From assembly GCA_025362295.1 (NCBI GenBank), contig JANYGX010000017.1, positions 1-64,000 on the forward strand: a stretch of 64,000 nucleotides of DNA, in the 5' to 3' direction. Positions 49,682 to 60,094 of the stretch are shown here, in pieces. The notes under the pieces are model-generated. The model saw nothing but the letters and a program-made list of their open reading frames with translations, ran no database searches and had not been told where the DNA came from. The translations under genes were made by a program, and so were the position numbers. How positions within the stretch are numbered: the stretch's first letter is position 1; every line of letters starts with the position of its first letter. The DNA comes from Sphingomonadales bacterium (lineage in GTDB: Bacteria; Pseudomonadota; Alphaproteobacteria; Sphingomonadales; Sphingomonadaceae).

Positions 49682-50638
49682 TTAAATGCGGCCAATAGCC
49701 AGATAGCGGGCACGGCGGTCAGCCTTCAATTCAGCTGGCTTCAGCGAACTCAAGCTGCCAAGTTCCTGCTCGATGGCTTGACCCATAGTGGTGATTGCAA
49801 GGTCGCGATTGCGATGCGCTCCCCCCATCGGCTCCGGAATAATGCGGTCAATCACCTTTAAACGAAGCAGGTCCTGTGCAGTGTGCTTAAGGGCATCGGC
49901 GGCATCGGCGGCTTTGTCTGCTTTGCGCCAAAGAATTGATGCGCAACCTTCTGGTGAAATAACCGAATAAACTGCATGTTCAAACATCATCACACGATTA
50001 CCGGAAGCAAGTGCCACAGCTCCACCTGAGCCACCCTCACCAACAATAACAGATATCAGTGGCACAGAAAGATTGAGGCAAGCTTCCGTAGCGCGGGCAA
50101 TTGCTTCAGCCTGTCCGCGTTCTTCCGCTTGAACGCCAGGAAAAGCACCAGGTGTGTCGACTAATGTGATTACCGGGAATGCAAATCGGTTGGCTAGCTC
50201 CATGAGCCTTATAGCCTTACGATAGCCTTCAGGCTTTGCCATGCCAAAGTTATGCTTAAGACGACTGGTTGTATCGCGGCCTTTTTCATGGCCCATAATC
50301 ATCACAGCGCGACCATTAAATCGACCTATGCCTCCAATAATTGCGGCATCCTCAGCAAATGCCCTATCGCCGGCAAGAGGTGTGAAGTCGTCTATCAAAC
50401 GATCTACTGTATCGCTGAAATGTGGCCTGTCCCCATGACGTGCCACTTGGGTTTTCTGCCATGGGTTAAGCCTGGAATATGTATCAACCAGTAGCTGATC
50501 GACCTTGGTTTGCAGTTTGGCAACTTCAGTTGACATGGAATTTGGACCCGCTGTCACGGCTTTGACAGATGCTTTCAAATCAGCAATCTTGGCTTCAAGA
50601 TCAGCAATAGGTCTCTCAAAATCTAATATAGTGCTCAT
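49682..50638 (-). CDS. accA: Acetyl-CoA carboxylase carboxyltransferase subunit alpha
   Basis: A protein of 318 residues, full length. The N-terminal helix [19 protein letters not shown] is followed by a carboxyltransferase core with [48 protein letters not shown], and [15 protein letters not shown]. AccA with AccD moves the carboxyl group from biotin to acetyl-CoA for fatty-acid synthesis. It is 32 bases downstream of pyrD, probably in one operon with DUF952 gene, pyrD and the SleB-type gene. Confidence 0.96.
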
Positions 50639-50670
50639 ATAAGGCTAGATGGCTGGTTTCAGGATCAAGG

Positions 50671-51711
50671 TCAATGATGCGCTGTTCCTACGGCCTCTGC
50701 GATATTTTTAAAACCATCTCGCAATAGGAGGGTATCCAGTTCTGTTGTAATTTGTCGAATCAAACCCGGCCCTTTGTAAATCAACGCCGTATAAAGCTGA
50801 ACCAATGACGCACCGGCACAAATTTTAGTATAGGCGTCTGCACCGGAAGCTATGCCACCGACGCCAATAATTGGCAATTTTCCATGAGTAATTTTATATA
50901 TTTTGGATAAAATCATTGTGGAATTATGCATTAAGGGTTGTCCAGATAGCCCGCCAGATTCCTTCGCTTGTCGAGATAATAAAGGCATCGATCTATCAAT
51001 AGTTGTATTGCTGACAATCAAACCATCAATCTGGCGGGCGCGTGCTATGGCCGCTATAGCTTCAAGCTCACTGTCATTTAAATCTGGCGCAATCTTTACA
51101 AGCATAGGCGTTCTCGAAGCGCCCCTTGCAGCAAGGCACCGCTCGATCAATTCATCAAGAGCGTTAGCCTCTTGAAGCGCTCGAAGCCCCTGCGTATTTG
51201 GTGATGATATATTTATGGCAATATAGCTGCATAATCCAAGCACGGACTTAATACCCAGTTCGTAATCTGCTACGCGATCCTGGCTATCTTTATTGGCGCC
51301 GATATTGGCGCCGATGATGCCGCCGTTTAGAAAGCGAAATTTTAATCTTGCTACGAAAGGTGTCAATCCATCATTGTTAAAACCCAGCCTATTTATCACA
51401 GCGCGGTCTTTGGATAAACGAAATATGCGTGGTTTGGCATTGCCGTGTTGAGCAAGTGGTGTCACCGTACCTAGTTCAGCAAAACCAAAGCCAAGGTTGA
51501 GAATAGCATCTGGCACTTCAGCATTTTTATCAAAGCCTGCGGCTAAACCGACAGGATTCTGAAAATCCAGATTAAATAATTTTATATGCAGAGATTGTGG
51601 ATCAACCTGATGTTTATGCGGCATATATTTAAGTGTTTTAATAGTGAGATTATGTGCCGTTTCAGGATCAAGCAAATGCAGGACAGGACGCAAAGTGTCA
51701 AATAAAGCCAT
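50671..51711 (-). CDS. pyrD: Dihydroorotate dehydrogenase (quinone), class 2
   Basis: A protein of 346 residues. Class 2 marks: a short N-terminal membrane-contact helix (FDTLRPVLHLLDPETAH), NPVGLAAGFDKNAEV, NRLGFNNDGL, the catalytic Ser region INISSPNTQGLR, and LPIIGVGGIASGADAY near the end. It oxidises dihydroorotate to orotate and passes electrons to quinone. It follows the DUF952 gene by 2 bases. Confidence 0.95.
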   Translation of the reverse strand: MALFDTLRPVLHLLDPETAHNLTIKTLKYMPHKHQVDPQSLHIKLFNLDFQNPVGLAAGFDKNAEVPDAILNLGFGFAELGTVTPLAQHGNAKPRIFRLSKDRAVINRLGFNNDGLTPFVARLKFRFLNGGIIGANIGANKDSQDRVADYELGIKSVLGLCSYIAINISSPNTQGLRALQEANALDELIERCLAARGASRTPMLVKIAPDLNDSELEAIAAIARARQIDGLIVSNTTIDRSMPLLSRQAKESGGLSGQPLMHNSTMILSKIYKITHGKLPIIGVGGIASGADAYTKICAGASLVQLYTALIYKGPGLIRQITTELDTLLLRDGFKNIAEAVGTAHH

Positions 51712-51713
51712 GA

Positions 51714-52064
51714 TTAATATATATCGTTTTCAAAACCATCAGGGAAGCGGTGGCTGTGTCCGTCCCACGGCAATGCCCAGGAGAGCGTGACGGCGCGCTC
51801 TGACAATGCATCAAAATAATGTGGAAATAATTGGCTGCCGCGCGCGGTTTCCCATCTCAAAGAATCGCCCAATTGATCGCTATCAATTTCTACCAGCACA
51901 AGGCCTGTTATACCTTTGAAATGTTTGGCTGCCGTTTCACACACCTGTAATGCTGTTGACAAGTGGATATAGCCATCGATTGCATCCACCTCGGAGCCCT
52001 GAAAACGACCTTCACGTCGCAACGTTGCCCATTCCTTTGCATGCAAAATTTTGTATAATTTCAT
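51714..52064 (-). CDS. DUF952 family protein
   Basis: A protein of 116 residues that matches DUF952: YKILHAKEWATLRREGRFQGSEVD, then DGYIHLSTALQVCETAAKHF, LVLVEIDSDQLGDSLRWE, and SQLFPHYFDAL. Structural relatives have been compared to RNA 2'-phosphotransferase/ADP-ribosyltransferase-like folds, but no function is established as far as I know. It is the first gene of the pyrD-accA operon. Confidence 0.85.
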   Translation of the reverse strand: MKLYKILHAKEWATLRREGRFQGSEVDAIDGYIHLSTALQVCETAAKHFKGITGLVLVEIDSDQLGDSLRWETARGSQLFPHYFDALSERAVTLSWALPWDGHSHRFPDGFENDIY

Positions 52065-52135
52065 AATATATTACTCTTTTTTTTATACACACATATTAAT
52101 TGTGAAATGGCGTGTTTCTACAATACAATTGAGTT

Positions 52136-52247
52136 TTAAACTTGCAAACATTCATCACCCGAGGGAATCGAATTCGCACTTGAAGTTTCAGTCGACTCGA
52201 ACCCACACTTCGCCCGCTCCTACTCATGTAGAGAGTGGGCTTTTTTT
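52136..52247 (+). ncRNA. Candidate small RNA, about 110 nt
   Basis: A promoter-like pair, TTGTGA (52100-52105) and TACAAT (52124-52129), would start a transcript near 52136. It would end at the terminator of 52212-52247. Inside, AAACTT and AAGTTT can pair across about 45 bases, and the central part includes CGAATTCG and TTCAGTCGACTCGAACCC stretches that do not translate well. No protein gene precedes the terminator on this strand, which is the main reason to suspect an RNA. No family is recognised. Confidence 0.4.
52212..52247 (+). terminator. Strong intrinsic terminator
   Basis: GCCCGCTC pairs with GAGTGGGC (one G-T pair), and inside it CTAC pairs with GTAG around a TCAT loop, with a single bulged A. 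Seven T follow at 52241-52247. This is a textbook Rho-independent terminator for plus-strand transcription, with no plus-strand gene immediately before it. Confidence 0.85.
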
Positions 52248-52391
52248 GTCAGATATGATATATATAAAGTATGTGTATTTTATCACAGCCAATGATTCGG
52301 ATGTAACTTATTATTAGAGCAATTACTCATTTGAGGGACCAATGAGATGTTGTCGATACTAAGTTTTTTTATACTTTGCCATGGTGCTTGA

Positions 52392-53279
52392 ATGCTAGTG
52401 GCCAGATATCATACCCCATCACTATCACTGCAAACGGTTGTTATAACCTATTATCATTATGCAGCGCATATTCCTCATAGTGTATCAATGTCTGACAAGC
52501 TTTTGGGCGAACGTGCGAATATTCGCTTTTTGATAGTCGGCAATGCGCGTGTTGCCACTCGTAAGCGCACGCTCGAACCAACGCCTTCAGCCCTTGCTTT
52601 TGGCCCCAATAGTTATCCAACGACGGTAAATTTTAGTGGTCCTTTTAAAGTTTTTGGGATTGGTATTAGTGCAGCAGGTTGGGATTCGCTGTTTGATATC
52701 CCGCAAGCCTGTATTGCCGATGATGTGATTGATTTAGCGGATTTGATCGGGAGGTATGATGCTGATGCAATAACCGATGCTTTGCGTGCCTGTAGATCAG
52801 ACGCCAATATGGTGACGGTTATGGATGATTTTTGGAGCGCCCGGCTTATAAGGCGTGGAGGCTTAAAGTCTTCACCAGCTATAAGCGCTATAGAAGAGGT
52901 GTTGGAGAATAAAAATATCAATAAGGTCGAAGTGTTGGCAGAGGCCGTTGACCTCAGCCTCAGGCAATTGGAGCGATTAACAACGGAAAGCTTCGGCTAT
53001 TCACCTAAATTGTTGCTTAGGCGACAACGTTTTTTGCGTGCTTTAAAAGCGATGCGAAATTTCGAGCGAAACGATTGGCAAGACACAGTGGCTGACGAGT
53101 TTTACGATCAATCTCATTTAATCAAAGAATTTCATAGATTTGCAGGTGAAACGCCAATTCAGCTGATGTTGCGGCTTAAGCCCTTGATGGACGCGGCATT
53201 AGATATGCAATTTAATAGGGGTCCGCACAATTCGAATAGGTCGTCGATTGATATCGATCAACTGGCTGTGGCGGTTTGA
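52392..53279 (+). CDS. AraC family transcriptional regulator
   Basis: A protein of 295 residues. The C-terminal part (about residues 170-265) has the two helix-turn-helix units of AraC regulators: KVEVLAEAVDLSLRQLERLTTESFG, YSPKLLLRRQRFLRAL and VADEFYDQSHLIKEFHRFAGETP. The N-terminal part is unrecognised and probably senses a ligand. The start at 52392 is uncertain; an ATG at 52488 is an alternative. It sits upstream of the suf operon in the same direction but is separated by a terminator-like hairpin, so control of suf is not implied. Confidence 0.82.
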   Translation: MLVARYHTPSLSLQTVVITYYHYAAHIPHSVSMSDKLLGERANIRFLIVGNARVATRKRTLEPTPSALAFGPNSYPTTVNFSGPFKVFGIGISAAGWDSLFDIPQACIADDVIDLADLIGRYDADAITDALRACRSDANMVTVMDDFWSARLIRRGGLKSSPAISAIEEVLENKNINKVEVLAEAVDLSLRQLERLTTESFGYSPKLLLRRQRFLRALKAMRNFERNDWQDTVADEFYDQSHLIKEFHRFAGETPIQLMLRLKPLMDAALDMQFNRGPHNSNRSSIDIDQLAVAV

Positions 53280-53300
53280 CCCTTGACGTAAGGGCTTTTT
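53280..53300 (+). terminator. Weak terminator-like hairpin after the AraC gene
   Basis: CCCTT and AAGGG form a 5-bp stem with the loop GACGT, followed by C and five T (53296-53300). It starts right after the AraC stop codon and would separate that gene from the Rrf2-suf operon. The stem is short, so termination may be partial. TTGACG inside it could also serve as a -35 for the Rrf2 gene. Confidence 0.4.
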
Positions 53301-53303
53301 ATC

Positions 53304-53342
53304 CCCATTTAATTCATACTACAATGGTATGAATTAAATGGG
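53304..53342. promoter_or_regulatory. Perfect 16-bp inverted repeat before the Rrf2 gene (suf operator)
   Basis: CCCATTTAATTCATAC (53304-53319) and GTATGAATTAAATGGG (53327-53342) are perfect inverted copies with a 7-base spacer. The right arm ends 6 bases before the Rrf2 GTG start and includes the GGG that would serve as its ribosome site. This fits an operator for the Rrf2 protein itself, giving autoregulation of the suf operon. In RNA the same repeat would form a very stable hairpin hiding the start. It differs from the E. coli IscR sites. Confidence 0.7.
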
Positions 53343-53348
53343 TTATAA

Positions 53349-53831
53349 GTGTTAAAATTATCAAATTTTGCTGATTATGCGGTTATTATGCTGGCTCACG
53401 TCGCCCAGAGGAATTGCGACAGCGTGAATAGTGGTTGGTTTTCAGCCTCGGCCATCGCTAGTGAATTAGCATTTTCAACCCCGACTGTAACAAAGATTAT
53501 CGGATTACTGGCAAAGGCAGGCTTGCTGACTACCCAGCGCGGCGCTCATGGTGGCTTTCGTTTGGCGCTTGGGCCAGAGGCAATCAGCATCGCAGCTGTG
53601 GTCGAAGCTGTAGATGGACCTATTGCCCTCACCCATTGCACGGATCATACGACGAACGTAACGCCATGTGATCGCCTCTCCATGTGTACAGTCAGCCCGC
53701 ACTGGCAAATCATTAACCGGACAGTGCGCGATTCTCTAATGTCTCTGAGTGTCGCTGATCTTGCCAAACCCGCACCAATTTTTGATTTCAGACCCCCTCA
53801 AATGAAGGAGGTAAACCATGTCCGCGACTAG
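53349..53831 (+). CDS. Rrf2 family regulator of the SUF operon
   Basis: A protein of 160 residues from a GTG start. The Rrf2 winged helix is clear: [46 protein letters not shown], and a wing [10 protein letters not shown]. Three cysteines, C97, C107 and C113 (in [18 protein letters not shown]), are the expected ligands of an iron-sulfur cluster, as in IscR-like sensors. The protein probably represses or tunes the suf operon according to cluster supply. Its end overlaps sufB by 14 bases. Confidence 0.9.
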
Positions 53832-55287
53832 CGAAACCATTGCCACAGTCGAAGACCTCACCAGCACCTACAAATGGGGGTTCTCGACTGATATCGAAAC
53901 TGAATTTGCGCCAAAGGGTCTAACCGAAGACACTGTGCGGTTTATCTCTGCAAAAAAGAACGAGCCCGTGTGGATGCTGGAGTGGCGACTCAAGGCCTAC
54001 CGACACTGGCTAGGTATGGAAGAACCGACATGGGCGATGGTGGATTTTCCAAAAATTGATTATCAGGACGCCTATTATTATGCCTCGCCCAAGCTCAAGG
54101 CAACGATTAAGTCGCTTGATGAACTTGACCCTGATATTTTGCTTACCTACCAGAAATTGGGTATTCCTATTGAAGAGCAAAAGTTTCTTGCTGGTGTCGA
54201 GGGTGCGCGCAAAGTGGCAGTGGATGCCGTTTTTGACAGCGTGTCTGTTGCCACAACATTCCGTGCGGAACTGCTGAGTGCGGGCGTAGTGTTTTTGTCG
54301 ATCTCCGAGGCGATCCGCGAATATCCAGATCTTGTGCAGAAATATCTCGGCACAGTAATTCCGCAGCGGGACAATTATTATGCCTGCCTGAACAGCGCCG
54401 TATTTTCCGACGGCACATTCGTCTATATCCCCAAAGGCGTGCGCTGCCCGATGGAGCTTTCCACCTATTTTCGTATCAATGCTGAAAATACTGGCCAGTT
54501 TGAACGCACGCTGATCATTGCTGACGAGGGGTCTTACGTGAGTTATCTCGAAGGCTGCACCGCACCGATGCGCGATGAAAACCAGTTGCACGCTGCGTGT
54601 GTGGAATTGGTGGCGCTTGATGATGCAGAAATAAAATATTCCACTGTGCAGAACTGGTACCCCGGCGACAAGGACGGCAAAGGCGGCATCTACAATTTCG
54701 TTACCAAGCGTGCCTTGTGCAAGGGCAAACGATCGAAGGTAAGCTGGACACAGGTGGAGACCGGTAGTGCAGTCACGTGGAAATACCCGTCGTGTGTATT
54801 ATCGGGTGATGATTCAGTCGGTGAGTTTTATTCAGTGGCTGTGGTGAATAACCATCAGCAAGCCGATACCGGCACCAAGATGATCCACTTGGGCAAGAAC
54901 ACAAAATCGACCATTGTCAGTAAGGGTGTTTCAACCGGCAAGGGTCAGAACACCTATCGCGGCCTGGTACGTGTTGCTGCAACTGCCGACAATGTACGCA
55001 ACTTTACGCAGTGTGATTCATTGTTGCTGTCATCAACATCAGGTGCCCACACAGTGCCCTATATTGAAGTCAAAAACCCGACGGCGCAGATTGAACATGA
55101 GGCTACAACATCGAAAATCAGCGATGACCAGCTATTTTATGCCATGTCGCGCGGGCTAACGCAGGAAGAAGCGGTGGCAATGATTGTGAATGGTTTTTGC
55201 CGAGAAGTGCTGCAACAATTACCAATGGAATTTGCGGTTGAAGCGCAGAAGTTATTGGGGATATCGCTAGAGGGGAGCGTGGGGTGA
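53818..55287 (+). CDS. sufB: Fe-S cluster assembly protein SufB
   Basis: A protein of 489 residues. SufB marks: [19 protein letters not shown]-like start ([19 protein letters not shown]), [47 protein letters not shown]-type region ([18 protein letters not shown]), and [18 protein letters not shown], ending in the beta-helix with [19 protein letters not shown]. SufB with SufC and SufD builds clusters on a scaffold. A perfect AAGGAGG precedes the ATG, inside the end of the Rrf2 gene. Confidence 0.97.
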
Positions 55288-55309
55288 TTGGAAACACACA
55301 TCAAGCCCC

Positions 55310-55403
55310 ATCATTCCAGCGAAAGCCGGAATCTCAGGCAATATTACCTAACGTTTGCACGTGCGCGCCGAGGCCTGAGGTTCCGATGCAAGGCCGGAAT
55401 GAC
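55310..55403. repeat. REP/MITE-like palindromic element inside the suf operon
   Basis: Two imperfect inverted arms: 55311-55338 (begins TCATTCCAGCGAAAGCCGGA) and 55374-55402 (ends GGCCGGAATGA), about 28-29 bases each and roughly three quarters identical. Each arm is itself a hairpin, e.g. ATTCCAGC-GAAA-GCCGGAAT. The 35-base middle contains GCACGTGC. The style matches dispersed REP-type repeats of many proteobacteria. It fills most of the 143-base gap between sufB and sufC, while the other suf genes overlap or nearly touch. Confidence 0.7.
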
Positions 55404-55430
55404 GCTCAACTGTTACAAATTGGATAATCT

Positions 55431-56171
55431 ATGCTCAACATACACAACCTCCACGTCGCCATCAACGATACCCCAATCCTCAAGGGCCTCACACTCGCCA
55501 TCAATGCTGGCGAAGTCCATGCCATCATGGGGCCAAACGGTGCCGGTAAATCGACGCTCTCTTACGCGCTAGCCGGCCGCGATGGTTATGATGTCACGGA
55601 AGGATCTGTGACCTACAACGGCCATAATTTGCTTGCCATGAAGCCGCACGAACGCGCCACCACTGGCATCTTCCTTGGCTTTCAATATCCGGTAGAAATT
55701 CCGGGCGTATCAAATGTGAATTTTCTCCGTACGGCGATGAACGCGATGCGCAAACGGCGCGGTGAAGCGGAACTCTCCGGTGGTGAATTTCTCAAGCTCG
55801 TCAAAACAAAATCAGCAGCACTTGGTATGGACTATGAGATGCTGAAGCGACCAGTGAATGTAGGTTTCTCTGGCGGCGAAAAAAAGCGCAACGAGATGGT
55901 ACAGATGGCGATGATCAATCCAACGCTGGCTATCCTTGATGAAACCGACTCAGGGCTTGATATTGATGCGCTGCGGGTGGTCGCCCAAGGCATCAATGCA
56001 TTGCGTGCGCCTGACAAGGCCATTCTTCTCATCACGCACTATCAGCGCTTGCTGGATTATGTGGTGCCAGATTATATCCACGTGCTGGCTGATGGCCGCA
56101 TTGTAAAAACTGGCGATAAGTCGCTAGCGCACGAACTGGAGCGAGATGGCTATGCAGGGATCGCCGCATGA
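55431..56171 (+). CDS. sufC: Fe-S cluster assembly ATPase SufC
   Basis: A protein of 246 residues. Walker A is GPNGAGKS (34-41), followed by GIFLGFQYPVEIPGVSNVNFLR (the SufC-specific region), the signature SGGEKKRNEM, Walker B LAILDETDSGLDIDAL, and a switch His in LLITHYQRLL. SufC is the ABC-type ATPase of the SufBCD scaffold. The ATG lies about 30 bases after the repeat element; the upstream frame (from 55288) is shadow. It overlaps sufD by 4 bases. Confidence 0.96.
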   Translation: MLNIHNLHVAINDTPILKGLTLAINAGEVHAIMGPNGAGKSTLSYALAGRDGYDVTEGSVTYNGHNLLAMKPHERATTGIFLGFQYPVEIPGVSNVNFLRTAMNAMRKRRGEAELSGGEFLKLVKTKSAALGMDYEMLKRPVNVGFSGGEKKRNEMVQMAMINPTLAILDETDSGLDIDALRVVAQGINALRAPDKAILLITHYQRLLDYVVPDYIHVLADGRIVKTGDKSLAHELERDGYAGIAA

Positions 56172-56917
56172 ATGCAGTGCCAACCAAGCGCAATGAACTC
56201 TGGCGCTATAGTGATTTGCAAGCAGTGGCGGCGGTATGGCCGTTGCCCGCACCGGAGCATATTATCGTGCCAGCAGGCGGCGAATTTTCACGCGCCATCG
56301 TGCAGGACGCGGCAGACAATGAAGTCGCTATACAAACCATTGATCTGGTGATTGGCAAGGATGCGCGCGCGGTTTTTGATATATTAAATTACGGAGGTTC
56401 ATTTGGTCGCATCGCCATTCGTGCAGTGTTGCATGAGAACGCCCATTTTAGATTAAACACTGTGCAGCTCGGCAGGGCAAGGCAGACACTGGAAATAGTT
56501 TGCACCATCATTCATGCTGAACTGGGGGCCACTTCCAGGCAAACAGTGCGCACGGTGCTTACCGATAAAGCTACCGGCACGTATCTTGGCAAAATACAAG
56601 TGATGAAAGCGGCGCAAAAAACCGATGCCTCGCAATCCTCAAAAGCATTATTGTTGAGTCGTTTGGCAACAGTCAATACCAAGCCAGAGCTGGAAATTCA
56701 TGCAGATGATGTGAAGTGTGCGCACGGGGCAACAGTTGGCGAGCTTGACAAAAATGCCCTTTTTTACTTGCAAACAAGAGGGTTGGATGAGGCTGAAGCA
56801 AAATCTTTGCTGACACGGGCTTTCGTAATGAGCGTGATCGATGATGTGCAAGACAGTGTCGTGCGTGACAATATGATCGCTCATACGGACATGTGGCTGG
56901 ATAAGGTGGCGTTGTGA
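56168..56917 (+). CDS. sufD: Fe-S cluster assembly protein SufD (short form)
   Basis: A protein of 249 residues, much shorter than the 400+ residues of E. coli SufD. The C-terminal part is clear: ELEIHADDVKCAHGATVGELDKNALFYLQTRGLDEAEAKSLLTRAF, the conserved end of the SufB/SufD family with the key His/Cys region. The N-terminal half is reduced. Short SufD proteins are seen in related alphaproteobacteria, so it is probably complete. It pairs with SufB and SufC. Confidence 0.9.
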   Translation: MNAVPTKRNELWRYSDLQAVAAVWPLPAPEHIIVPAGGEFSRAIVQDAADNEVAIQTIDLVIGKDARAVFDILNYGGSFGRIAIRAVLHENAHFRLNTVQLGRARQTLEIVCTIIHAELGATSRQTVRTVLTDKATGTYLGKIQVMKAAQKTDASQSSKALLLSRLATVNTKPELEIHADDVKCAHGATVGELDKNALFYLQTRGLDEAEAKSLLTRAFVMSVIDDVQDSVVRDNMIAHTDMWLDKVAL

Positions 56918-58113
56918 GTAGCCGTTCAGCCCGCCTAGATTTTCCGGTTTTTTCAGCCAACCCAAAACTCGTCTATCTCGACAATGGCGCCACAGCACAA
57001 AAGCCGATTTCAGTGATTGATGCCATCGCGCGCGCTTATGCAATTGATTATGCAACCGTTCATCGCGGCGTCTACGCGCGTTCTCAACACATGACTGAAG
57101 CGTATGAGGCGGCTCGTGTGGCTGTTGCGAAATTCATCAATGCAGACGAGAAAGAAATCATTTTCGTGCGCGGGGCAACTGAAGCGATCAACCTCGTAGC
57201 GCAAAGCTGGGGCCGTACTTTCTTGAAGGCTGGTGATGAAGTCGTGCTTACCGAGCTTGAACATCATAGCAACATTGTGCCGTGGCAATTGCTGCGTGAT
57301 CAAATTGGTATTGTGCTGAAGTTTATACCCATCAATGGTGAGGGTGATCTTGATTATGATGCGGCTAAGCAGATTATAAGTGAGGGCACCAGGCTTGTAT
57401 CGATTGCTCATGTATCAAATGTATTGGGCACTGTTATAGATCTGCCGCGCATCTTCTCTATGGCGAAGGCAGTCGGGGCGAAAACTTTTGTTGATGGTTG
57501 CCAATCTGCGCCGCGTATGGTGATTGATGTGAAGGCGCTAGACTGTGATTTTTACACATTCTCAGGCCACAAACTTTATGGCCCAACGGGTATTGGTGTG
57601 CTATACGGAAAGTATGACGTGCTGGCCACCATGCCGCCCTATCACGGCGGCGGTGCCATGATTGAAACGGTGAGCTTTGAGCGCAGCACATTTTTACCTC
57701 CACCCCTGCGCTTTGAAGCCGGCACCCCACATATTGTTGGCGTGCTCGGGCTTCATGCAGCTGTTGATTATGTGTGCGAGATTGGTATGGCAAATATAGC
57801 AAAACACGAAGCCCATTTGCTGGCTAAAACCCGTGACACCTTGCGTCTTTTTAACTCTGTGCGTGTGCTTGGACCAGAACACGGATCAGGGGCTGTTTCT
57901 TTTGTTATGGAGTGTGTGCATCCGCATGATATAGGGACAATACTTGACGAGGACAGCATTAACATCCGCGCGGGCCACCACTGTGCACAGCCGCTTATGG
58001 ATGTGCTTGGCGTGCCCGCAACAGCGCGGGTAAGTTTTGGTGTCTACAATACAGCGGATGATATTGACCGGCTAGGAAGTGCCATGGAAAAAGTTGTGAG
58101 GATATTCAGGTGA
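56914..58113 (+). CDS. sufS: Cysteine desulfurase SufS
   Basis: A protein of 399 residues from a GTG start that overlaps the sufD stop. PLP-dependent group II desulfurase: VYLDNGATAQKP, ELEHHSNIVPWQ, FVDGCQSAP, the PLP Lys in FSGHKLYGPTG (K220), FEAGTP, and the active Cys in RAGHHCAQP (C357). It takes sulfur from cysteine and hands it to the SUF scaffold. A SufE partner is not in the window. Confidence 0.96.
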   Translation: MSSRSARLDFPVFSANPKLVYLDNGATAQKPISVIDAIARAYAIDYATVHRGVYARSQHMTEAYEAARVAVAKFINADEKEIIFVRGATEAINLVAQSWGRTFLKAGDEVVLTELEHHSNIVPWQLLRDQIGIVLKFIPINGEGDLDYDAAKQIISEGTRLVSIAHVSNVLGTVIDLPRIFSMAKAVGAKTFVDGCQSAPRMVIDVKALDCDFYTFSGHKLYGPTGIGVLYGKYDVLATMPPYHGGGAMIETVSFERSTFLPPPLRFEAGTPHIVGVLGLHAAVDYVCEIGMANIAKHEAHLLAKTRDTLRLFNSVRVLGPEHGSGAVSFVMECVHPHDIGTILDEDSINIRAGHHCAQPLMDVLGVPATARVSFGVYNTADDIDRLGSAMEKVVRIFR

Positions 58114-58562
58114 GCGAGCAAATTATTAAATCAGAAATAATTGATACAGCGCCACCCGTACCTGAGCGTCCAATAGTTACCAATGCTGTCGAACGTAAGC
58201 TGGATTATCTTGATAAATTTTTGAAACAAACGCCCGCTGTTGTACCAAACGAAGCGCCGGGTGGCATGCTCTATGATTCAGTGATTGAAGCCCTGCGCAA
58301 TATTCATGATCCTGAAATACCCGTAAATATCTACGATCTTGGTTTGATTTATGGGGTTGATATCGATGGTGGCCATGTTGATGTGACGATGACACTCACA
58401 ACACCGCACTGTCCGGTTGCTGAATCCATGCCGATGGAAGTTGAAACCAAGGTTGGCGCTGTGCCAGGTGTTGGCAGTGTGAATGTCGCATTGGTGTGGG
58501 ATCCGCCTTGGGATCCGCAGAAAATGTCCGACGATGCAAAACTTGAATTAGGGATGTTGTGA
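58110..58562 (+). CDS. sufT: SUF-associated DUF59/MIP18 protein (SufT)
   Basis: A protein of 150 residues from a GTG start overlapping sufS by 4 bases. The DUF59 domain is clear: VIEALRNIHDPEIPVNIYDLGLIYGVD, VTMTLTTPHCPVAESMPMEVE with the conserved Cys, and VGSVNVALVWDPPWDPQKMS. An N-terminal 50 residues is extra. Family members help mature iron-sulfur proteins. The link to the SUF operon supports that role. Confidence 0.9.
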   Translation: MSEQIIKSEIIDTAPPVPERPIVTNAVERKLDYLDKFLKQTPAVVPNEAPGGMLYDSVIEALRNIHDPEIPVNIYDLGLIYGVDIDGGHVDVTMTLTTPHCPVAESMPMEVETKVGAVPGVGSVNVALVWDPPWDPQKMSDDAKLELGML

Positions 58563-58563
58563 T

Positions 58564-58896
58564 ATGAAAGCTGCTCTTACAGTAACAGACTCTGCTGCCG
58601 GGCGTATCGCGACTTTAATGGCAGAAGCACCAGCTGATACCAAGGGTTTACGTTTGACCACGCCACAAAAAGGCTGCTCCGGTCTTACCTATAAAGTTGA
58701 TTATGTCGTATCACCAAATTTATTGGATGAAGTTGTGGAAACACCGTCGGGTAAGTTGTTTATTGATTCTGGCTCGCTTTTATATCTCATCGGTTCTGAA
58801 ATGGATTGGGCAGAGGATGATTTTACAGCTGGCTTCACATTCAGCAATCCAAATGAAAAGGGCCGTTGTGGTTGTGGGGAAAGCTTTACCGTTTGA
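58564..58896 (+). CDS. sufA: A-type Fe-S carrier protein (SufA/IscA/HesB)
   Basis: A protein of 110 residues. The three cluster-binding cysteines are in GCSGLTYKV (C38) and CGCGESF (C102, C104), in the pattern of A-type carriers. It receives clusters from SufBCD and delivers them to target proteins. It starts one base after the sufT stop. Its own stop overlaps the probable start of trmB. Confidence 0.92.
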   Translation: MKAALTVTDSAAGRIATLMAEAPADTKGLRLTTPQKGCSGLTYKVDYVVSPNLLDEVVETPSGKLFIDSGSLLYLIGSEMDWAEDDFTAGFTFSNPNEKGRCGCGESFTV

Positions 58897-59576
58897 CCCG
58901 CAACGAATTGACTCATAAGGCTGGCACTGAGCCTCAACGTAACCTCTACGGCAGACGCAAGGGTCCAAAGCTGCGTGACCGGCCAGCGCGATTGATGGCT
59001 GAGCTTTATCCGAAACTCGCGCTGCCCGACTCTGGGCCAATTATTGTCGAACAGCGCAACTGGTTTGAGGTTGGCTTTGGCAAAGGCGAACACATGGTTG
59101 TAAACGCGCAAGCTAACCCTGATGTGTTGTGCATTGGTTGCGAGCCTTATGTTAACGGTATGGCCGCCTGCCTTGGTTTGATTGAGGACACTGGAATTAC
59201 CAACGTAAGGCTGTACATGGGTGATGCATTATCAGTTCTGGAACGTTTGCCAGATGCATCGTTAGAAAAAATATTTGTATTACATCCAGACCCTTGGCCA
59301 AAAACAAGACACGTTCGTCGGCGTTTTATTAATGAAAAACCGTTGGCAGTGATGGCTGCCAAGCTTAAAGCTGGCGGCGAACTTAGGGTGGGCACAGATC
59401 ATGAAATCTATATGGAACATAGCCTCATGACTATAAGTCATAAAAGTTTTACTTGGACAGCTGAAGCCAAAAAAGACTGGAATATAAGGCCTGATGATTG
59501 GCCTGAAACACGCTATGAGGCATGGGCTTTAGGTGAGGGGCGTCCGGTGTGGTATCTGCGTTTTTTGCGTACATAA
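58893..59576 (+). CDS. trmB: tRNA (guanine-N7-)-methyltransferase TrmB
   Basis: About 227 residues. TrmB marks: RRKGPKLRDRPARLM, FEVGFGKGEHM (SAM site), PEV-like IGCEPYVNGMAACL, IFVLHPDPWPKTRHVRRRFIN (family signature), and RVGTDHEIYMEHSL and RPDDWPETRYEAWAL. It methylates G46 in tRNA. There is no good ATG near the start; TTG at 58893, overlapping the sufA stop, fits best, with GGGGA upstream, and TTG at 58908 is an alternative. It closes the suf operon. Confidence 0.9.
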   Translation: MTRNELTHKAGTEPQRNLYGRRKGPKLRDRPARLMAELYPKLALPDSGPIIVEQRNWFEVGFGKGEHMVVNAQANPDVLCIGCEPYVNGMAACLGLIEDTGITNVRLYMGDALSVLERLPDASLEKIFVLHPDPWPKTRHVRRRFINEKPLAVMAAKLKAGGELRVGTDHEIYMEHSLMTISHKSFTWTAEAKKDWNIRPDDWPETRYEAWALGEGRPVWYLRFLRT

Positions 59577-59580
59577 AGTT

Positions 59581-59608
59581 ATAATGACTGTAATGTTGTT
59601 GTCATTAT
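59581..59608. repeat. 8-bp inverted repeat after trmB
   Basis: ATAATGAC (59581-59588) and GTCATTAT (59601-59608) are perfect inverted copies with a 12-base loop, starting five bases after the trmB stop. No T-tract follows. It may be a weak terminator or a binding site controlling the DUF3597 gene; a TATAAT (59619-59624) lies just downstream. Confidence 0.4.
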
Positions 59609-59665
59609 GATTAAGTACTATAATATACTATTTTATTAAAGATTGAAAACCCAAGGAGTGATACA

Positions 59666-60094
59666 ATGAGTATATTTAGCGCGATTAAGAATGCTATTTT
59701 TGGCAAAGCTAAAGAGTCACCGGCGCCAGTTGCTGTGTCGGCACCCCCTTCTAATTCACCAATTAATACTAATGTTGAGCAACCTGTTGAAGCTACAACA
59801 ACAGAACAAGCAAGTGATCAGCATGCGCCAATTGGCGAGGTTAATGTCGAGTCTATTTTGGACGCGGCCGTTAAAATTAAAGGGGAAAATCTTAATTGGC
59901 GTGTTTCAATTGTCGATTTGATGAAATTATGTGACCTTGATTCCAGCTTGAGTGCCCGCAAGGAATTAGCCGACCAGTTGGAATACACCGGAGATATGAG
60001 CGATTCAGCCACAATGAATATATGGCTGCACAGACAGGTAATGAATAAGTTGGCTGCCAACGGTGGGTATGTGCCTGCAGAGCTCAAAGATTGA
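59666..60094 (+). CDS. DUF3597 family protein
   Basis: A protein of 142 residues. It opens MSIFSAIKNAIFGKAK, then a Pro/Thr/Glu/Gln-rich linker (about residues 18-52), then the DUF3597 core: VNVESILDAAVKIKGENLNWRVSIVDLMKLCDLDSSLSARKELADQ and SATMNIWLHRQVMNKLAANGG. The core resembles peptidoglycan-binding-like helical domains, but the function is not known. AAGGAG stands before the ATG. A candidate intrinsic terminator follows. Confidence 0.85.
   Translation: MSIFSAIKNAIFGKAKESPAPVAVSAPPSNSPINTNVEQPVEATTTEQASDQHAPIGEVNVESILDAAVKIKGENLNWRVSIVDLMKLCDLDSSLSARKELADQLEYTGDMSDSATMNIWLHRQVMNKLAANGGYVPAELKD

Follow-up and report, generated by a model that had tools for sequence, protein, structure and literature searches.

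A perfect inverted repeat stands directly before sufR, the regulator gene of a suf operon in a Sphingomonadales bacterium, and the question raised by this locus is what such a palindrome does there. A stretch of 64,000 nt, hereafter called the window, was analysed together with the rest of the genome and with related genomes. The comparison of sequences argues that the palindrome very probably holds the operator of the suf promoter, by which SufR would repress its own operon when clusters are plentiful.

The palindrome and the suf operon

The first-pass annotation had described two perfect 16-base arms with a 7-base spacer, ending 6 bases before the GTG, and both the coordinates and the complementarity are in agreement with this description. 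The left arm, CCCATTTAATTCATAC (53304-53319), and the right arm, GTATGAATTAAATGGG (53327-53342), are 100% complementary on either side of the spacer TACAATG, and 6 nt separate the right arm from the sufR GTG at 53349. The sole ribosome-site-like bases had also been placed in the right arm; they correspond to a GGG (53340-53342), the only such stretch near the GTG and a weak one. When gaps of 3-20 nt were considered, the palindrome was the longest perfect inverted repeat of the window, the runner-up having arms of 12 nt. Arms of at least 16 nt occurred in 0 of 100 random windows of equal dinucleotide composition, where the longest were of 15 nt (one case) and 13 nt (one case). The extended palindrome has a single copy in the 2.59-Mb genome, even with 3 mismatches allowed.

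The features of the locus are collected in Table 1. The regulator gene heads the operon and adjoins sufB; the family whose cut-off it passes, TIGR02944, is that of the SUF-system regulators (suf_reg_Xantho), whereas with the model of the E. coli-type IscR (TIGR02010) SufR scores 55.1 bits, far under the cut-off of 207.55. In an alignment with relatives the GTG falls on their conserved start, M-[IL]-[RK]-L, and the three cysteines, putative cluster ligands arranged as C97-x9-C107-x5-C113, are all invariant among 22 relatives. No Rrf2 gene other than sufR was found in the genome. No NifU_N match, the mark of a NifU/IscU scaffold, was found in the genome, which therefore appears to depend on SUF alone, without an ISC system.

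Table 1. Coordinates of the suf locus features in the window
Feature	Positions	Strand	Remarks
Predicted -35 TTGACG of the suf promoter	53283..53288	+	TTGA conserved upstream of the operator in relatives
Whole perfect palindrome	53304..53342	.	Operator core and mirrored -10 region
Predicted -10 CATTTA	53306..53311	+	Spaced by 17 nt from the -35; makes up the outer portion of the left arm
Operator core TAATTCATAC-tacaatg-GTATGAATTA	53310..53336	+	Counterpart of the relatives' 27-nt motif
Predicted transcription start region	53316..53320	+	From the -10 position and the conserved promoter layout
sufR, Rrf2-family regulator	53349..53831	+	GTG start; TIGR02944, 122.4 bits (cut-off 110.65)
sufB	53818..55287	+	NF008773, 893 bits, over its cut-off
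sufC	55431..56171	+	TIGR01978, 356.5 bits
sufD	56168..56917	+	TIGR01981 best match; 199 bits, under the curated cut-off of 222
sufS, cysteine desulfurase	56914..58113	+	TIGR01979, 530 bits
SUF-associated protein (SufT-like)	58110..58562	+	TIGR02945, 146.4 bits, over its cut-off
A-type carrier, sufA-like	58564..58896	+	TIGR00049, 102.9 bits, over its cut-off

Within the operon, the 143-nt gap between sufB and sufC (55288-55430) contains an imperfect inverted repeat of the kind TCATTCCAGCGAAAGCCGGAATC...GGCCGGAATGACG. Two other places of the genome carry a 32-34-nt part of this repeat, so that the suf operon seems to harbour a dispersed repeat that has decayed.

Putative operator motif and promoter in relatives

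A sufR homologue was present in all of the 59 related genomes searched, and a sufB-like reading frame was seen behind it in the 31 loci fetched with downstream DNA. An independent collection of named homologues came mostly from Sphingomonadales, the remainder including some Kordiimonadales-like, Rhodospirillales-like, Xanthomonadaceae and deltaproteobacterial records. A motif model was seeded by hand and then refined with 58 upstream regions, the window's own site being excluded. It describes a 27-nt semi-palindrome upstream of sufR-sufB, cAAAtCgGACcgAATtaGTCcGATTTg, which is present in 56 of the 58 genomes used for its discovery. Among further upstream regions, 74 of 76 reach at least 13 bits, versus 0.3% of 946 control stretches taken at these loci; some of the controls are probably true second sites. 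Genome-wide searches of seven relatives with the sequence-only model placed the sufR promoter at the top in all seven, sites outside the training of the model included. The first-pass annotation had named the lack of the palindrome in relatives with the Rrf2-sufB arrangement as grounds to drop the operator; they carry a semi-palindrome of equal spacing at the same promoter position. This comparison supports the site itself, the place that it takes at the promoter, and the fact that it is conserved together with sufR-sufB.

In the relatives the distance between operator and start codon varies widely, from 0 to about 150 nt. One genome first scored as an exception (G041) has its operator 235 nt upstream of sufR, just beyond the stretch first searched. 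In Thermaurantiacus tibetensis (L010/L078), no recognisable operator was found in the 220 nt searched, and this is the sole such locus of the first set. In three loci (L019, L066 and L068) the highest-scoring copy of the motif does not cover the start but closely precedes the TTGAC -35; L019 apparently has a weaker copy at the usual place as well, which suggests tandem operators upstream of its sufR. In many Erythrobacter- and Sphingomonas-type genomes (for example L076, L105, L107, L129 and L140), a conserved string, agaaccgctcgc, directly follows the operator, just before the start codon.

The promoter itself was seen only by alignment with the relatives and was not listed by a simple promoter scan. 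Of 130 relatives, 102 have a TTGA at 22-33 nt before the operator, as opposed to 2-7 per control stretch of similar size; of 97 aligned on the TTGA, 67 show [CT]A[TCG]NT at offset 23 from it and a further 17 show this at offset 22. The gene upstream in the window has a terminator-like hairpin, and the predicted -35 lies inside it. The TACAAT of the spacer was also considered as a -10 and was dropped, not being conserved in relatives. From the conserved layout, the suf transcript is predicted to start near 53318, inside the palindrome, and the suf mRNA would therefore contain the right arm only, without the left one. Three minimal frames with ATG starts (ATG GTA TGA; ATG AAT TAA; ATG GGT TAT AAG TGT TAA; 53324-53355) begin in the leader that separates this predicted start from the GTG of sufR, probably by chance in AT-rich sequence.

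The position of the start bears directly on the second half of the earlier proposal, in which the operator of an Rrf2 regulator would at the same time form, in the normal suf transcript, an RNA hairpin masking the sufR ribosome site. While the comparison with relatives supports the operator before the suf operon, it does not support the translation-blocking hairpin, and such a two-layered site is now judged highly improbable. The whole palindrome does fold strongly as RNA (53280-53400, -33.5 kcal/mol, z -3.8) and the location of the GGG in its right arm is consistent with masking. However, the hairpin needs both arms in one transcript, and with the predicted start inside the palindrome the left arm would stay untranscribed; the leader from 53318 is no more folded than its shuffles (z +1.8), and the relatives have arms of at most 10 nt at variable distances from the start codon. 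An RNA family search over 50000-60000 gave no match. It is equally improbable, in our estimate, that the perfect extension has a function in read-through RNA from the AraC-type gene upstream, which would fold via both arms and hide the ribosome site of sufR. If this were true, only RNA from the SufR-controlled promoter would be translated, and the site would be an operator combined with a translational lock for read-through RNA.

That same AraC-type gene (52392-53279; PF12833) ends 24 nt before the palindrome, and neighbouring genes are often targets of local regulators. Binding of the palindrome by another regulator, such as the AraC-type protein, is nevertheless very doubtful: the motif type precedes sufR-sufB across many genera where the AraC-type neighbour is not seen, AraC-family proteins usually bind direct repeats, and the spacing of the site fits Rrf2. 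Finally, a strong hairpin directly past the end of an ORF could be read as the terminator of the upstream gene or as a dispersed hairpin element, but the former identity is largely refuted by the lack of a T-run after the palindrome on either strand and by a separate terminator-like hairpin with a T-run at 53280-53294, the latter is ruled out by the single genomic copy, and the conserved operator motif at the equivalent place in relatives leaves hardly any likelihood to either.

Divergence and extension of the window's site

The operator of SufR in the window is most likely of an ordinary autoregulatory type found across the order, diverged in its bases and bearing a lineage-specific extension. 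Held out from the model, it ranks 1 of 127,948 window positions on both strands and lies 27 nt after the TTGAC, the usual distance in relatives being 26-30 nt. Its score of 15.5 bits is low for the family, in which 24-35 bits are typical, and the site was not returned by a genome-wide model search at E 5. The half-sites are ATTCATAC-N7-GTATGAAT, as compared with mostly AATCGGAC in relatives, so that the core reads ATAC on both sides and departs from the family consensus half-site GGAC. A TAC half-site variant is seen in a few relatives, for example L016, L004 and L051.

The divergence of the half-sites is paralleled in the protein. Thr48 of SufR, which was matched by eye to Glu43 of E. coli IscR, a base-contacting residue (PMC9973013), is unique among 135 proteins, and Ser43 replaces a near-invariant proline (P in 127 of 134). 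Across the set, and with kinship ignored, residue 48 tracks the half-site, Gln going with CGGA and Ser with a looser half-site; the window pairs its unique Thr48 with the equally rare ATAC on both sides. This covariation, in which kinship is left aside, hints that SufR itself may read the site.

In relatives the half-site symmetry is strongest 5-12 nt from the centre and, in the set of 130, it is no higher than background (0.25-0.44) from 13 nt on; a perfect arm of more than 10 nt was found in 0 of 130. The palindrome of the window keeps its symmetry over the positions 4 to 19 nt away from the centre. Its outer left arm matches the conserved promoter at the -10 region while the outer right arm is without counterpart in relatives, and the symmetry reaches 19 nt because the -10 region on the left is mirrored on the right. 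By this comparison, the 16-nt perfection is a lineage-specific extra, and arms so long and perfect are seen in this genome alone. The simplest account would be template switching (quasi-palindrome correction), with the left side as the source of the right. A naked palindrome can thus mislead: promoter, and not operator, makes up half of its length.

Proposed autoregulation by SufR and related systems

In the model that we favour, a dimer of SufR, a regulator of the TIGR02944 type, would bind the half-sites ATTCATAC-N7-GTATGAAT. These half-sites lie over the predicted -10 element and start of transcription, where the bound protein would block RNA polymerase. With clusters plentiful, cluster-loaded SufR would repress sufR-sufBCDS-(SUF_assoc)-sufA; with clusters scarce or damaged, the repression would be lifted, closing a negative feedback. 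We infer that SufR binds the site, that it depends on clusters and that it acts as a repressor, and likewise the exact point at which the transcript starts; dependence on clusters is suggested by the conserved cysteines and by characterised relatives, and it is by analogy with these that SufR may be called a cluster-sensing autorepressor.

Within 3 mismatches, ATTCATAC-N7-GTATGAAT occurs at 18 places of the genome, its own site included, versus 3 for the reversed control. Most of the 17 other places are inside long ORFs. The closest of them, with 1 mismatch (contig 65065-65087, just past the window), is at the end of two converging ORFs and is an unlikely operator. The consensus of the relatives, used as a pattern in this genome, gave no excess over control. 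Because the genome yielded no other convincing site, suf may be the main or only target of SufR, although equally diverged sites could have been missed.

The closest parallel is Myxococcus xanthus RisR, an Rrf2 protein of group IS6, for which a GAC-N7-GTC site over the -10 of suf and isc was footprinted and mutated; its cluster form represses suf and isc, and disruption of the palindrome raises expression 3-4 fold (PMC9973013). The site of the window shares the 7-nt spacing of the half-sites, with diverged bases, and overlaps the suf -10 as the AT-rich-flanked RisR site overlaps those of the suf/isc promoters, and the RisR cysteines C92, C102 and C108 are spaced as C97, C107 and C113 of SufR. 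It differs by ATAC in place of GGAC, by its perfect 16-nt arms and by a genome that appears to have no ISC system. With the TIGR02944 regulators of Sphingomonadales, SufR shares a score over the family cut-off, the sufR-sufB order and the place and spacing of the operator, whereas its S43/T48 recognition helix and its half-sites have diverged.

Autoregulation of a cluster-assembly operon by an Rrf2 protein is common to E. coli IscR and to the IscR of Caulobacter crescentus, which represses its own isc-suf operon in high iron (PMC11475020). The earlier observation that the site resembles neither the type 1 nor the type 2 sites of E. coli IscR holds, since it fits the GAC-N7-GTC architecture of RisR instead, and the Caulobacter type I and II consensuses, quoted with those of E. 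coli in PMC11475020, are likewise unlike it. Rhodobacter sphaeroides IscR represses its own isc-suf operon through the 19-bp Iron-Rhodo-box when iron or clusters suffice (PMC4618611), but that protein has a single cysteine and its box stands at many iron genes, in contrast to the one site here.

Zymomonas mobilis belongs, like the present organism, to Sphingomonadales. When that species is exposed to oxygen, its suf operon, which includes an IscR homologue, at first goes up (PMC6372839). In the literature searched, no paper describing a consensus operator for TIGR02944-type SUF regulators was found.

The comparison provides a consensus site for the TIGR02944-type SUF regulators across Sphingomonadales and, in this genome without a detected ISC scaffold, a candidate and testable operator for its sole Rrf2 regulator. 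A recognition helix and an operator that have both diverged would offer a natural case for studying how the specificity of Rrf2 proteins changes.
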